Below are positions 29,605 to 38,159 of a stretch of 38,159 bases of DNA, one piece after another; positions within the stretch are counted from its first letter, which is position 1, and each line of letters begins with the position of its first letter. The DNA comes from a virus. The DNA lies in the IMG/VR virus record IMGVR_UViG_3300028392_000143, positions 1-38,159 of that record, one strand, 5' to 3'. The notes under the pieces are model-generated. The model searched no databases. It was not told the DNA's origin and was given only the letters and a program-made list of their open reading frames with translations. The position numbers and the translations under genes were made by a program.

Positions 29605-29735
29605 ACACTCGGTCCCTGCTTTTCTGGCTCGGCTCGGACGCCAAGCACATAGCCGATGAATACGAAACCCAGCAGCAGTTAGCGCGCGAGGCGTACACGG
29701 TCGATCATCTAGACGCTCAGGCAGAGTATGAGTGA
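29601..29735 (+). CDS. Hypothetical protein, 44 aa
   Basis: ATGA overlaps the HNH stop. Short start with aromatic residues (SLLFWLGSDAKHIADEYE) and an acidic helical end (DHLDAQAEYE). No family recognised; the overlap at both ends supports it. Confidence 0.45.
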   Translation: MNTRSLLFWLGSDAKHIADEYETQQQLAREAYTVDHLDAQAEYE

Positions 29736-29964
29736 TAACCCGCAAGGTATAGAACACGGATATAGCCTACAGGGTATATCCCGCACGACCGGCATTGCCC
29801 TGCTAGAGCGTGCTGCCCACATCATGCGGGAACGCGCGCCGCTACCTGATGGCATTGACGCGTTGATAGGCTGGATGGGCTTGATCCTGATTGACGTTGC
29901 GACCAAGCCCAAATCCGATAGCGCGAACGCGGCAGATATGTGGGCTAAGTCGCTTCGAGAGTAG
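29728..29964 (+). CDS. Hypothetical protein, 78 aa; last rightward gene
   Basis: Overlaps the preceding gene by eight bases and runs convergently into the leftward gene ending at 29945. The middle is helical and hydrophobic (ALIGWMGLILIDVATKP). No known domain. It marks the end of the rightward transcription unit. Confidence 0.5.
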   Translation: MSDNPQGIEHGYSLQGISRTTGIALLERAAHIMRERAPLPDGIDALIGWMGLILIDVATKPKSDSANAADMWAKSLRE

Positions 29965-29967
29965 CCC
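29942..29967. other. Hairpin at convergent gene ends
   Basis: GGGCTA (29942-29947) pairs perfectly with TAGCCC (29962-29967), with a smaller TCG/CGA pairing inside. It lies where rightward and leftward genes meet and could weakly slow transcription both ways, but there is no T-run on either side. Confidence 0.3.
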
Positions 29968-30289
29968 GCGCTGCAATGATGGCGGCGGGGTCGAGGTTGC
30001 GGATGCCATCGCGGCACGTTGTGCAAGCCATGCGCTCCATGATCGACGATAGCGGCTGTCCGGTCGCATATTGCGGCGACAGGTAAGCATCCCGCTGCTC
30101 TTCGCAGGCTACCGCAGCCGCCTCAATCCCCAGCGCCACACCTTCGGCAAGACCGGCTGCGTGCGCTGCATCACGCTCGGCGCGGAGGTTGCGGATTTCG
30201 GCGGCGGCTTGGCGGAACAGGTCGCCATCGGATACGTTCAAGTTTGTCCTGCGCGCACGGGCCTCCAACCGCTCAATCAGATCATCCAT
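29945..30289 (-). CDS. Hypothetical helical protein, 114 aa
   Basis: Last gene of the attP-proximal leftward unit, overlapping the gene before it by eight bases. It begins with a charged helix (DDLIERLEARARRTN), has a coiled-coil stretch (AAAEIRNLRAERDAAH), then a part with CTTCRDG that might bind metal only weakly. Proteins of this style are common in phage accessory regions. Function unknown. Confidence 0.6.
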   Translation of the reverse strand: MDDLIERLEARARRTNLNVSDGDLFRQAAAEIRNLRAERDAAHAAGLAEGVALGIEAAAVACEEQRDAYLSPQYATGQPLSSIMERMACTTCRDGIRNLDPAAIIAARATLEAT

Positions 30290-30605
30290 TGTCTGGCTCC
30301 TCTAGTGCTGTGCGGTCTTCTTCAAGTTCAGTCCTGAACTTAATGTACCACTGCCCGAACACATCGAAATGGTTCAGCACAAAGGCCATGTTGTCGGCTT
30401 GACGGGTCAACGCCTCCCGCAACTGCGCGACCTGCGCCTGCAAGTCAAAAATGATTTGGTCACGCTGCGCTAGTTCGTTGAGGTTGCGGTCTATGACTTC
30501 TGCCATAAAGGCTTTATCCGCCTCTGCGGCCTCGGCTCGGGCTTCGTCTGCTGCTAGAGCCGCATCACTCAGCGCGGCGAGTTGTTCACTGTCCACGTTC
30601 ATCAT
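30282..30605 (-). CDS. Coiled-coil protein, 107 aa
   Basis: The ATG at 30605 overlaps the previous stop; a second ATG follows at 30602. The sequence is Ala/Glu-rich and helical (LAADEARAEAAEADKAFM) and continues as a coiled coil (IIFDLQAQVAQLREALTR). No known domain. Its partner may be another member of this leftward unit. Confidence 0.6.
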   Translation of the reverse strand: MMNVDSEQLAALSDAALAADEARAEAAEADKAFMAEVIDRNLNELAQRDQIIFDLQAQVAQLREALTRQADNMAFVLNHFDVFGQWYIKFRTELEEDRTALEEPDNG

Positions 30606-30754
30606 CCTTTCAAATGCACATGCGCCAGGGTGACGCGGCGGATGCGTTCGATCGCAGCGATCATGCTAGGCTTGTGACCCTGAGCGCATTGGGCAGTGCT
30701 CTTTGCCCATTTCTCAAGATCGGCGCGCGTCTCGAACTTCGGATCGTCACCCAT
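30602..30754 (-). CDS. Hypothetical protein, 50 aa
   Basis: A short gene that fits exactly between its neighbours: a strong ribosome-binding site (GGAGGTGA) precedes its ATG at 30754, its start overlaps the upstream stop (TGATG) and its stop overlaps the next start (ATGA). The protein is basic and helical (RADLEKWAKSTAQCAQGHKP, then AAIERIRRVTLAHVH). No family recognised. Confidence 0.6.
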   Translation of the reverse strand: MGDDPKFETRADLEKWAKSTAQCAQGHKPSMIAAIERIRRVTLAHVHLKG

Positions 30755-31101
30755 CACTCACCTCCATCGTTCGGGCTGGTGGGGTTCCGGTGGCTAAACC
30801 ACACGGTCTTGTCTGGCGCTTGTATGGTATAGCTGTCCTGCCCAAGGCTGCCGCACAGGCGCTTGCCTAATTCATCGGCGCGGTGCCAAATCGCTCGCGG
30901 TTCAGATGGAAAGCGCGGGTAATTAATCAAACCGACGATGACGCCCGATTCCTGCCCGCCAGTGTAGACATAGGCTGTCGGTGTGACGGTGACGCAAAAC
31001 CCGGTTTCGTCGCAATACGCGCGGCATAATTCCAGCGCCTTGGCATAATCTCCGGCAATGAAAATGGAGACGGAATAGGAAAGAGTTTCGGCGCGCGTCA
31101 T
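30754..31101 (-). CDS. Hypothetical protein, 115 aa
   Basis: Start MTRAETLSYSV at 31101 overlaps the stop of the PP-loop gene (ATGA); a longer in-frame start at 31131 lies inside that gene. The fold looks alpha/beta (SVSIFIAGDYAKALELCRAY, CVTVTPTAYVYTGGQE, VIVGLINYPRFPSEP). It is coupled in translation to the PP-loop protein, which suggests they act together. No known family. Confidence 0.65.
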   Translation of the reverse strand: MTRAETLSYSVSIFIAGDYAKALELCRAYCDETGFCVTVTPTAYVYTGGQESGVIVGLINYPRFPSEPRAIWHRADELGKRLCGSLGQDSYTIQAPDKTVWFSHRNPTSPNDGGE

Positions 31102-31970
31102 GCGGCTTCTCCTGCACACCAAGTCCCGCACTCGGCGTCCATGTCGGGATCGAAGTCGAACAATCCGCCGTTGAACAAATCAGGCTGGCGGCGCACATCG
31201 CGCATCAAGCTGGCATAGCTGTACTCGGTCACAAACTGGCCTTTGCCCGGCCCGGTTTCCATGTCTGACCACCATTGCAACGTCCCCGGCGCGGTGCGTT
31301 CGATTTCCCAAAGCTTCGGGCGAGCCTTGAGAAAGCAGGCATCGCAATTGCCTTCAAACGGCAGCAATTGCAGGTCAAAGGGCTGGGCATTCCAGAACGC
31401 GCGAACGTCGCGGTTGCTCACCTTGGCGTCGTCCAGCGGCAGCGCCGTAACCCAGCGATCTTTGTTCGGTGCGCGCGACTTGGCAACGCGGTGCTGTTCG
31501 TCGTGGCGCAAACCGACAACATTGGTCCAGTGTTCATAGCCTTGCGCCTGCATGAACCACTTCATCACGCGGACCTTAAGTTCCGAAGTGCAAAACCGGG
31601 TGACAGCGTTCGGGGTATAGCCCTTAACCGCGATCAGATCGGCAAAGGGCTTGCCATCCCGCGAGGCGCTGTTAAATCCAACTTCCTCATATCGAGCGTC
31701 AAACGGCACTACGTTGCCGTCATCGTCCTTCGTGCGCCGGGTGCGCCATTCCAGCCAGCGGACGCGGACATTCCAATGGGTGGCGCAATCATGCACAAAC
31801 CGCAGCGTCTCTTCGCGCTCCTTGCCAGTGTTGGCGAAGGTCACATGCACATCGTCGGGCAGCGTACCGCCATGCGCGTCGAGGATCATCTTGAGCATGT
31901 AGGCGCTGGTCCTGCCGCCGCTGAACGATATGAGCGCTGGGCCGGTGATGAGGTACGGGTTCTCGCTCAT
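31098..31970 (-). CDS. PP-loop ATPase of the PAPS-reductase family
   Basis: A 290-aa protein with GAGGAG before its ATG. The PP-loop is SGGRTS (17-22), followed by an ANTGKEREET loop, the family's second nucleotide-binding segment. Three Cys clusters follow: FCTSELK, GNCDACFLK, and CGTWC near the C-terminus. PP-loop enzymes adenylate substrates or reduce adenylyl sulfate; relatives with several cysteines (for example DndC) insert sulfur into DNA or tRNA. The function in phages is mostly unknown. It heads the five-gene leftward unit next to attP. Confidence 0.75.
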   Translation of the reverse strand: MSENPYLITGPALISFSGGRTSAYMLKMILDAHGGTLPDDVHVTFANTGKEREETLRFVHDCATHWNVRVRWLEWRTRRTKDDDGNVVPFDARYEEVGFNSASRDGKPFADLIAVKGYTPNAVTRFCTSELKVRVMKWFMQAQGYEHWTNVVGLRHDEQHRVAKSRAPNKDRWVTALPLDDAKVSNRDVRAFWNAQPFDLQLLPFEGNCDACFLKARPKLWEIERTAPGTLQWWSDMETGPGKGQFVTEYSYASLMRDVRRQPDLFNGGLFDFDPDMDAECGTWCAGEAA

Positions 31971-32001
31971 ACCGCGCTCCTCTGGTCGGGGTGGGCAGGC
32001 A

Positions 32002-32014
32002 GGTTATGGGATAA

Positions 32015-32017
<3 letters not shown>
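32002..32017. promoter_or_regulatory. Near-palindrome upstream of the PP-loop gene
   Basis: GGTTAT-GGG-ATAATCC is an almost perfect inverted repeat 32-47 bases before the ATG at 31970, where an operator or promoter for this unit would be. A related ATAACCCATTATCC lies in the repressor-Cro intergenic region (633-646). No clean -35/-10 pair is visible, so this is a weak candidate. Confidence 0.3.
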
Positions 32018-32244
<227 letters not shown>

Positions 32245-33109
32245 GCTGCAATCATGGCTTTACGGACATCCTCCTCGCGGGTGTGGAAGTACCGCTGGGT
32301 CGTCCGCATATCGGAGTGCCCAAGCAGCACGTTTGCCATCTCAACGCTGCCGGTGCGGGTTGCTGCCGTGTGCCGGTTATCATGGAACCGATAGCCTTCG
32401 ATCCCAGCAGCAGCCAACGCGCGCCGCCACTTGCGATCCCAGCCTTGCGCGCTGAACGGATACCGCTGGCCCTTGATCCGCTGCACCCGGTCAGCACGGC
32501 GCGGGCTTGATCGCTCGGCAACGTAGGTGAACACTTGCGCGCAGACCTTCGGCTGATTGGCGATCAGCGCCACCAGCGACGGCGTGAGCGGAAAGCTGTG
32601 CGGCTTCTGGCCCTTGGCCCATACGGTCGCGCGGGCCTGCCCAAGATCCACATCGGCCCAGCGCAGCGTCACGATCTCGGCTTTGCGTTGGCCTGACAGC
32701 AAAGCGAACTGGACGATAGGCTTGAGGCTATCAGGCAAAGCTGCAAACAGGCGCGTCTGTTCATCGTCGGCCAGCGTGCGGGTAACCGGCTTGGCCTCGC
32801 GCAACCGGACCTCTTTCCATGCGATCACCGGCATGTCATTCCCGCGCGCACCGTTCCATTCGATCACACGCCGCAGCAGGGCCGTCTCGCGGTTCACGCT
32901 GGCATTCTTCACCGTGGCACGGCGGCGTGCGATGTAGGCGTCCAGATCGGCCAAGGTAATGTCCTGCATCGGGCGGTTCTTGCCCAGCCCTTCAGCCAGA
33001 TTGGTAAGCTGGTAGATCACGGTTGCATGGCTCCGCAGATGCTGGCCTTTGGCTTCCCACCAGGCACCGCACGCATGGTCGATCGTGATGGTTGGCTTGA
33101 CGGTTTCAC

Positions 33110-33433
33110 CTAGAGCGACCTTCCGCCGCCGCTCGGCTTCAAACCGCTCCGCGTCCCGCTTTGATGTGCAGAGCGTACTGCCGTGATAGCGATGACCTTG
33201 GAACTGGAAGTCAAAGTGCCAGAAGCGGCTTTTCGCGGGTTTGTAGAGGGACATGGTGGGGCGTCCTGCTGGGTATGGCGGGCCAGATAATCAGCGCAAT
33301 CTTCGGCGGTGTAAAACACCTTGCGCGGGCTTGGCCGGATATAGCGGATCATCCCCGCCTTCCGCAGATTGCGCAAGGTCCGCTGCGACACCCTGAGCGC
33401 CTCCGCTGCCTCAGCTTCAGTTATGAGGGTCAT
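33110..33433 (-). CDS. Excisionase-like helix-turn-helix protein
   Basis: A 107-aa protein with an N-terminal MerR-type winged helix used by excisionases (LITEAEAAEALRVSQRTLRN; KVFYTAEDCADYLARHT). The C-terminal 45 residues overlap the integrase gene by 145 bases in a different frame, an unusually long overlap; the tail (SSSKVIAITAVRSAHQSG) is polar and may be non-essential. The protein would steer integrase toward excision and may regulate transcription. The ATG lies just after a terminator hairpin. Confidence 0.75.
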   Translation of the reverse strand: MTLITEAEAAEALRVSQRTLRNLRKAGMIRYIRPSPRKVFYTAEDCADYLARHTQQDAPPCPSTNPRKAASGTLTSSSKVIAITAVRSAHQSGTRSGLKPSGGGRSL

Positions 33434-37826: not shown

Positions 37827-38159
37827 TTAAGTCTCGTAGCGGATCGAGGCCACCACGATTGCGACAATTTCCGCCGCCGAAATGCCGGGTTCAACCTGCC
37901 CGAATCGGAATGCTTGAAACGATGGGTCGCTGGATCGCGGCACGAACCACACCACGCCGTCTGCGCCTTCGACGTATTCCTTCACCGTGGTTTCGTATTC
38001 GCCGTTATCGCGCAGGCGCTGCACGATCACTCGCCGCCCGCTAGCGATAGGCTCTCGGCCCCAGTACCTGACGCATTCCAGAATAGTGCCAGGCGGGTAC
38101 ACCAAGTCCATGCTTTGGCCTTCGACCCTGACGCCGTAGCGATCCCGCAAAGGTGCATC
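37827..38159 (-). CDS. S24/LexA-like repressor domain (N-terminus cut by right edge)
   Basis: The frame is open from base 38159 (first full codon GAT) to the stop at 37827: 111 codons. It is an S24 peptidase domain: YGVRVEGQSMDLVYPPG with the candidate nucleophile Ser in GQSM, GRRVIVQRL, and a candidate Lys in ETTVKEYV, ending VVASIRYET. The expected first half with the DNA-binding domain is outside the window. It lies directly upstream of the leftward promoter, as lambda cI lies between its two early promoters. A TTG at 38150 is in frame but is too near the domain to be a real start. Confidence 0.85.
   Translation of the reverse strand, partial: DAPLRDRYGVRVEGQSMDLVYPPGTILECVRYWGREPIASGRRVIVQRLRDNGEYETTVKEYVEGADGVVWFVPRSSDPSFQAFRFGQVEPGISAAEIVAIVVASIRYET

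Follow-up and report, generated by a model that had tools for sequence, protein, structure and literature searches.

The five-gene unit

The viral record IMGVR_UViG_3300028392_000143 of IMG/VR (38,159 nucleotides, nt; hereafter the window, whose positions serve as coordinates throughout) is one complete circular genome of a temperate phage of Sphingomonadales-type bacteria. Beside its phage attachment site (attP) it carries five leftward genes, here g1 to g5, which a preliminary description of this DNA had put forward as an undescribed system. We found that this idea holds for g1, which encodes a PP-loop protein, and g2, which encodes a protein with the predicted fold of S-adenosylmethionine (SAM) lyases; the two are apparently a recurrent coupled pair, undescribed in the literature searched. 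The idea fails for the five genes as one system, because a co-occurrence search found only g1 and g2 to be linked in relatives. The unit and its upstream side are laid out as follows (aa, amino acids).

31098-31970, minus strand: g1, PP-loop protein, 290 aa (PF01507, phrog_424)
30754-31101, minus strand: g2, phrog_4848 protein by profile match, 115 aa, ATG start
30602-30754, minus strand: g3, small open reading frame, 50 aa
30282-30605, minus strand: g4, probable coiled coil, 107 aa (weak profile matches)
29945-30289, minus strand: g5, small phage protein, 114 aa (few distant relatives)
31971-32120: upstream region of the unit, with an arm-type repeat (32002-32025) and a promoter-like element
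32121-32164, plus strand: attP core, 44 nt, exact match to the 5' half of a transfer RNA (tRNA) gene, tRNA-Pro(TGG)

All five minus-strand open reading frames (ORFs) are present at these coordinates, and the tight overlaps described earlier were confirmed at all junctions (about 1-8 nt). Gene 2 starts with an ATG at 31101 that overlaps the stop of g1 (GCATGAC), which gives exactly the 115 aa reported before. Good Shine-Dalgarno-like stretches precede g1 (AGAGGAG), g3 (GGAGG) and g5 (GAGGAG), and these together with the position-specific G+C content are compatible with translation of the unit; judged by homology, g1 and g2 are certain to be genes. At their 3' ends, g5 and the last rightward ORF (29728-29964) converge and share 20 nt. 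No sigma-70 consensus promoter was found for the unit, a negative that is uninformative for alphaproteobacteria. A 411-aa open frame on the opposite strand (31275-32510, plus strand) runs through g1, attP and the integrase gene; its base composition does not resemble that of a coding sequence, and the frame probably results from the high G+C content.

Gene 1, a PP-loop protein of the NinC family

Gene 1 matches PF01507 (30.9 bits, cut-off 22.5) and, over residues 3-286, phrog_424 ('phosphoadenosine phosphosulfate reductase', E 6e-52), and by sequence it is a member of the phrog_424/lambda NinC family. Lambda NinC, which is recognised by phrog_424 and phrog_33262, has the same length as g1, is 30% identical to it over 230 aa (E 6e-23) and shares the motifs SGGRTS, FCT..LK and GNC..C. 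The PP-loop of g1 is SGGRTS (residues 17-22). In a 22-sequence alignment of g1 relatives, the SGG.TS loop is invariant together with C127 (RFCTSELK in g1), C209 and C212 (NCDACF) and C281 (ECG). C281 keeps its (E)CG context throughout, some relatives end in ECG(LH), and this tail is unordered in the g1 model; C281 is a candidate counterpart of the catalytic Cys in the ECGLH end of APS/PAPS reductase (CysH).

The AlphaFold2 model of g1 (predicted local distance difference test, pLDDT, 88.9) is closest in fold to reductases of adenosine phosphosulfate (APS) and phosphoadenosine phosphosulfate (PAPS) (2goy/7rge; VIA Z 13.6, 3.5 A, 184 residues). The small subunit of adenosine triphosphate (ATP) sulfurylase, the [4Fe-4S] tRNA thiolase NcsA (6scy, Z 11.9) and the [4Fe-4S] protein LarE (8cnz, Z 11.6) come next. 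The invariant cysteines and this fold bear out the earlier suggestion of a PP-loop protein with conserved cysteines and a fold for sulfur chemistry. In a low-probability profile alignment with an APS reductase from a sphingomonad, the first Cys and the Lys of the CCAIRK motif line up with C127 and K132 of g1, and the second Cys with T128; three of the four cysteines of the APS-reductase [4Fe-4S] site (CC...CxxC) are found in g1 (C127-T128...C209-C212). The PP-loop thiolases TtuA, NcsA and LarE hold a site-differentiated cluster through three cysteines, and by analogy the three-Cys site of g1 appears to resemble the cluster sites of these enzymes.

Gene 1 belongs to the same PP-loop superfamily as DndC and SspD, and PADLOC matched the SspD profile (E 1e-11) to only a part of g1. 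Among the five unit proteins and ten other non-structural or unassigned window proteins, PADLOC found no DndD, DndE, SspB or SspC partner. Defence of the Dnd/Ssp type is not supported, the matches being weak and partial and no partner having turned up among these proteins.

At E 1e-5, g1 has matches in about 400 phage records, and such proteins are annotated as PAPS reductase in phages. Some relatives of g1 belong to early replication operons, others to lytic phages and lytic operons, and others have late positions, with lysis genes on one side and packaging genes on the other. In lambda, ninC is a non-essential, delayed-early PR gene (PMC10695390). By default we therefore expect g1 to be expressed during the lytic programme, and the lysogen-specific expression that had been proposed for the unit was dropped. 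The setting of lambda ninC differs from that of g1: the lambda gene is part of the delayed-early nin region and has no annotated phrog_4848 neighbor, whereas g1 stands at the attachment-site end and is coupled to g2.

Gene 2, a protein with the predicted SAM-lyase fold

Gene 2 matches phrog_4848 (E 5e-41, residues 8-117), a family of no known function that is found in many lytic phages. The best VIA matches of its AlphaFold2 model (pLDDT 91.9) are to the phage SAM lyase Svi3-3 (6znb, Z 13.4, 2.3 A, 106 residues; 6zm9, Z 13.1). The six best rows are all lyases of SAM or of SAM-AMP (AMP, adenosine monophosphate), with Z from 13.4 to 10.4, including the SAM-AMP lyase 9gab/9gad at 10.6 and a further SAM lyase at 10.4; the next row, an unrelated fold, is at 8.7. 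Foldseek matched the g2 model to a phage SAM lyase with E 2.7e-5 and TM 0.73. By its model g2 belongs to the SAM-lyase (PII-like) fold, a likeness that had gone unnoticed in the preliminary description.

Among 70 non-redundant relatives of g2, the conserved positions include Q88 (97%), Y46 (96%), S90 (94%), E51 (90%) and NYPRFP; in g2 itself the motifs are NYPRFPS (60-66) and Q88-x-S90. SAM lyase needs the strictly conserved residues Glu69, Gln104 and Gly56, the last of which faces the ribose, and Tyr58 and Glu105-Ser106 are close by (PMC7877911); SAM-AMP lyase (catalytic Glu71/Gln108) shares only the Glu and the Gln with it (PMC12255297). Q88 of g2 falls in the B-loop, and residue 97 of the model is matched to residue 117 of 9gab/9gad, in agreement with Q108. 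The secondary structure and this end offset (97 to 117) suggest that g2 keeps the Glu/Gln pair common to both lyases. The likeness of g2 to phage SAM lyase (Svi3-3, T3 SAMase family) and to SAM-AMP lyase lies in the fold and in putative counterparts of the B-loop Gln, the T-loop Glu and the Tyr before the T-loop Glu, and it differs from both in having no detectable sequence similarity to them, a Tyr/Phe at the Gly56 position, a short T-loop, a unique NYPRFPS motif and linkage to PP-loop genes. A search for the g2 family in 396 host-order genomes gave no match above E 1e-10 and, having no positive control, is uninformative.

Pairing of g1 and g2 across phages

For the linkage analysis we used loci fetched with g2 alone, 70 of them non-redundant at 90% g2 identity. 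A match to the g1 profile lies within 1.5 kb in 25 of the 70. Binned by distance, 24 matches fall in the 131 near locus-kilobases and one in the 384 farther ones (Fisher P 2e-14, with locus-kilobases that are not fully independent). With further PP-loop seeds, the number of loci in which a PP-loop gene lies within 1.5 kb rises to 43 of the 70, always with both genes on one strand; this count is partly circular because the added seeds had been picked up as neighbors of g2. No PP-loop match was seen beyond 2 kb in any of the 70 loci. The PP-loop gene is usually upstream of g2, and an exact 4-nt overlap of the ATGA type (measured from the in-frame start nearest the stop) is present in 27 of the 37 upstream cases. 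The PP-loop partners belong to several subfamilies (SGGRTS, FSCGAASA, SGGKDS and others), and all nine tested match phrog_424. Gene 2 also stands alone (in PAK_P1, KpS8 and roseophages), and the closest relatives of g1 (83%) are without g2. Judged from these sequences, g2 associates with PP-loop genes specifically, though not obligatorily.

Some individual loci show further neighbors. An uncultured phage (L104:3991-6594) has a NinC-like gene, g2, a NADAR-domain gene and an N6/N4 DNA methylase gene in a row, and in a sphingomonad genome (G234; L080:15828-18474) g1 and g2 lie behind a gene for a DUF4942-plus-methyltransferase protein. These DNA methylase and NADAR neighbors fit, anecdotally, a DNA-modification or counter-defence neighborhood. 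At a third locus (L126:4234-4998) the gene that precedes g2 and overlaps it by ATGA encodes a PP-loop protein that is a close homologue of PptA (PDB 21fy chain C; E 1e-38). PptA matches the g1 profile weakly (E 0.01) and is of a different PP-loop subfamily; no publication on PptA was found in the literature searched.

Genes 3-5 and the proposed cargo slot

Co-occurrence was examined for g4 and g5 in IMG/VR and the phage collection and for g3, g4 and g5 in all fetched loci. No relatives of g3 were found by profile searches or in the fetched loci. Gene 4 has weak matches only (phrog_24256, E 1.5e-4; two loci, L059 and L060). Relatives of g5 are found at L057 and L058 and also at the duplicate pair L004/L010, where a g5-like ORF lies about 3 kb from g1. 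Apart from this distant ORF, g3-g5 are unlinked to g1-g2 in relatives, and they are small, weakly conserved genes, probably passengers.

The placement of the unit at the attachment-site end, as described earlier, is correct: 32121-32164 is the 5' half of tRNA-Pro, and a sphingomonad lysogen (G145) carries a prophage of about 51 kb, with a 77%-identical integrase, integrated in that tRNA gene. From the position of attP and the circularity of the genome it follows that the unit would lie at the prophage end opposite the integrase and read inward. In G145 the slot next to the attachment site holds a gene for a 589-aa C5-cytosine DNA methylase (L075:13159-14928), also reading inward, and in L004/L010 (46%-identical integrase, different tRNA) the slot holds a g1 homologue. 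We therefore take the stretch that separates attP from the late genes to be, most likely, a cargo slot. The methylase in the related slot makes a cargo or anti-restriction slot plausible, and to this extent the DNA-modification or defence role suggested for the unit keeps some plausibility; its extension to a Dnd/Ssp-type system is not supported. Location at an attachment site is no rule for g1, as an integrase of the window's family lies within 1 kb in few of the 137 g1-bearing loci, namely the window, L004/L010 and L190 only.

Interpretation of the pair

In our judgement it is an even call that the region is a cargo slot whose translationally coupled g1-g2 core acts in one infection pathway, with g3-g5 as passengers. 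The reading is built on what is observed, namely the genes, their conserved residues, the linkage with its mostly ATGA coupling and attP, and on the modelled folds of g1 and g2. Under it, g1 would be an ATP pyrophosphatase of the PP-loop type with the APS/PAPS-reductase fold; it would bind ATP through SGGRTS and probably hold a [4Fe-4S] cluster through C127, C209 and C212, with C281 as a candidate mobile redox or persulfide cysteine; by its class, it would adenylate a substrate and/or transfer sulfur. Gene 2 would be a small PII-like protein, expected to form a trimer, with the lyase Glu/Gln pair in an inter-subunit pocket; a SAM-like or adenylated ligand would be bound there and probably also cleaved. 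The pathway that the two would share during infection is most likely counter-defence or the modification of nucleic acids or nucleotides. More tentatively, phrog_424 and phrog_4848 might form an undescribed two-component phage system: a PP-loop enzyme with a [4Fe-4S] cluster and a partner of the SAM-lyase fold would together carry out a new thiolation or adenylation reaction, linked to a SAM-type ligand and directed at phage nucleic acid or a host defence signal.

Several observations weigh against this picture. The site of g1 has three cysteines, one fewer than that of APS reductase. Only one of the 104 loci fetched with g1 carries g2, and cultured lytic phages often carry g2 with no PP-loop gene nearby. 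On the side of g2, no sequence-level homology to T3 SAMase or to the lyases in PDB was found; the position of SAM-lyase Gly56 is a Tyr or Phe in 69 of 70 relatives (given that Tyr46 corresponds to Tyr58) and the T-loop is about six residues shorter than that of SAM lyase, and the ligand may therefore be something other than SAM. In some phages the pair lies beside DNA methylases, which would be odd if g2 destroyed bulk SAM; for phages that also encode a methylase, such destruction is less likely. Both models are single-chain predictions.

A doubtful but serious alternative is that g2 alone acts in counter-defence, as a SAM or SAM-AMP lyase that either depletes SAM against restriction and bacteriophage exclusion (BREX) or destroys the messenger of type III CRISPR (clustered regularly interspaced short palindromic repeats), and that g1 is an independent early gene travelling along. 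The fold with its putative Glu/Gln pair and the phages in which g2 stands alone are in line with this, and there are precedents: type I restriction and BREX are both overcome by T3 SAMase, and an anti-CRISPR role has been proposed for a phage SAM-AMP lyase (PMC7877911, PMC12255297). Hitch-hiking, however, hardly explains why several PP-loop subfamilies have the same ATGA overlap with g2, and the aromatic residue at the Gly56 position and the methylase neighbors also argue against this alternative.

It is unlikely, though in keeping with the PII-like fold, the coupling to PP-loop genes and the aromatic residue at the ribose position, that g2 is a non-enzymatic regulatory subunit by which the PP-loop enzyme is controlled in response to an adenylate or SAM that g2 senses: the putative lyase Glu/Gln pair is strongly conserved, and g2 occurs without a PP-loop gene.

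We consider it very unlikely that g1 serves as an auxiliary metabolic gene by encoding a true APS/PAPS reductase that would raise sulfate assimilation in the host. The PF01507 score above cut-off, the phage annotations, the closest solved folds and the ECG(LH) ending of some relatives point that way, but the curated NCBIfam reductase equivalog PRK02090 scores 16.1 bits on g1 (cut-off 154) and an invariant Thr replaces the second Cys of the CC pair. On the equivalog score and the cysteine set, g1 was rejected as a true CysH. The sphingomonad genomes carrying g1 relatives have their own complete CysH, lambda ninC is dispensable, and g1 has no sulfate-assimilation context, no other gene of that pathway being recognised in the window. 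That all five are unrelated passengers and the adjacency of g1 and g2 a clade effect is hardly credible: g3-g5 are unlinked beyond the g5-like ORF and near relatives of g1 are without g2, but the linkage holds across 70 loci at less than 90% g2 identity with diverse PP-loop partners, and with no PP-loop match beyond 2 kb.

The coupled g1-g2 core matters beyond this phage, as phrog_424 proteins are very common in phages and routinely filed as sulfur auxiliary metabolic genes; no tested function for them, lambda NinC included, was found in the literature searched. The predicted SAM-lyase fold of phrog_4848 and its coupling to phrog_424 genes provide a strong functional link for both families, and the old annotation question, whether phage 'PAPS reductases' are metabolic enzymes or enzymes of counter-defence or modification, is now open to direct biochemistry.

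Attachment site and other features of the phage genome

The record has no end repeat, yet the circle closes through a gene for a CI-type repressor (HTH_3 plus Peptidase_S24) that is split at 38159/1 and reads through once the ends are joined; the record is therefore a complete circle. Leftward from 33 kb on, the genes encode the integrase, an excisionase-like protein, an Erf-like annealing protein, a RecE-like exonuclease and an HNH protein, and the rightward genes encode RusA, a replication initiator, terminase, portal and endolysin. The features around attP, beyond those given above, are as follows.

32002-32025: arm-type repeat 1, in the region upstream of the unit, flanking attP
32221-32243, plus strand: arm-type repeat 2 (GGTTCGGGACTATTCCGGGACTC), on the integrase side of attP
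32175-33254, minus strand: tyrosine integrase (PF00589, E 3e-20)
33110-33433, minus strand: excisionase-like helix-turn-helix protein (phrog_66, E 7e-9)

The attP core is also present in two other phages (L055 and L056), beside 73%-identical integrases, and the G145 prophage is flanked by the 5' half of tRNA-Pro and by a complete tRNA-Pro. Just before the tRNA sequence of attP (window 32071-32164) there is a promoter-like TTGCCA-N17-TAGGGA on the plus strand (32082 onwards), and the same place in L056 and G145 has TTGCGC/TTGCCC-N17-TAAGGG; the loci compared here were L056, L075:14981-15132, L073:3597-3737 and L010. The host tRNA-Pro in G145 originally lay behind another tRNA, in an apparent operon, so that integration seems, from these sequences, to swap a phage promoter in for the tRNA.

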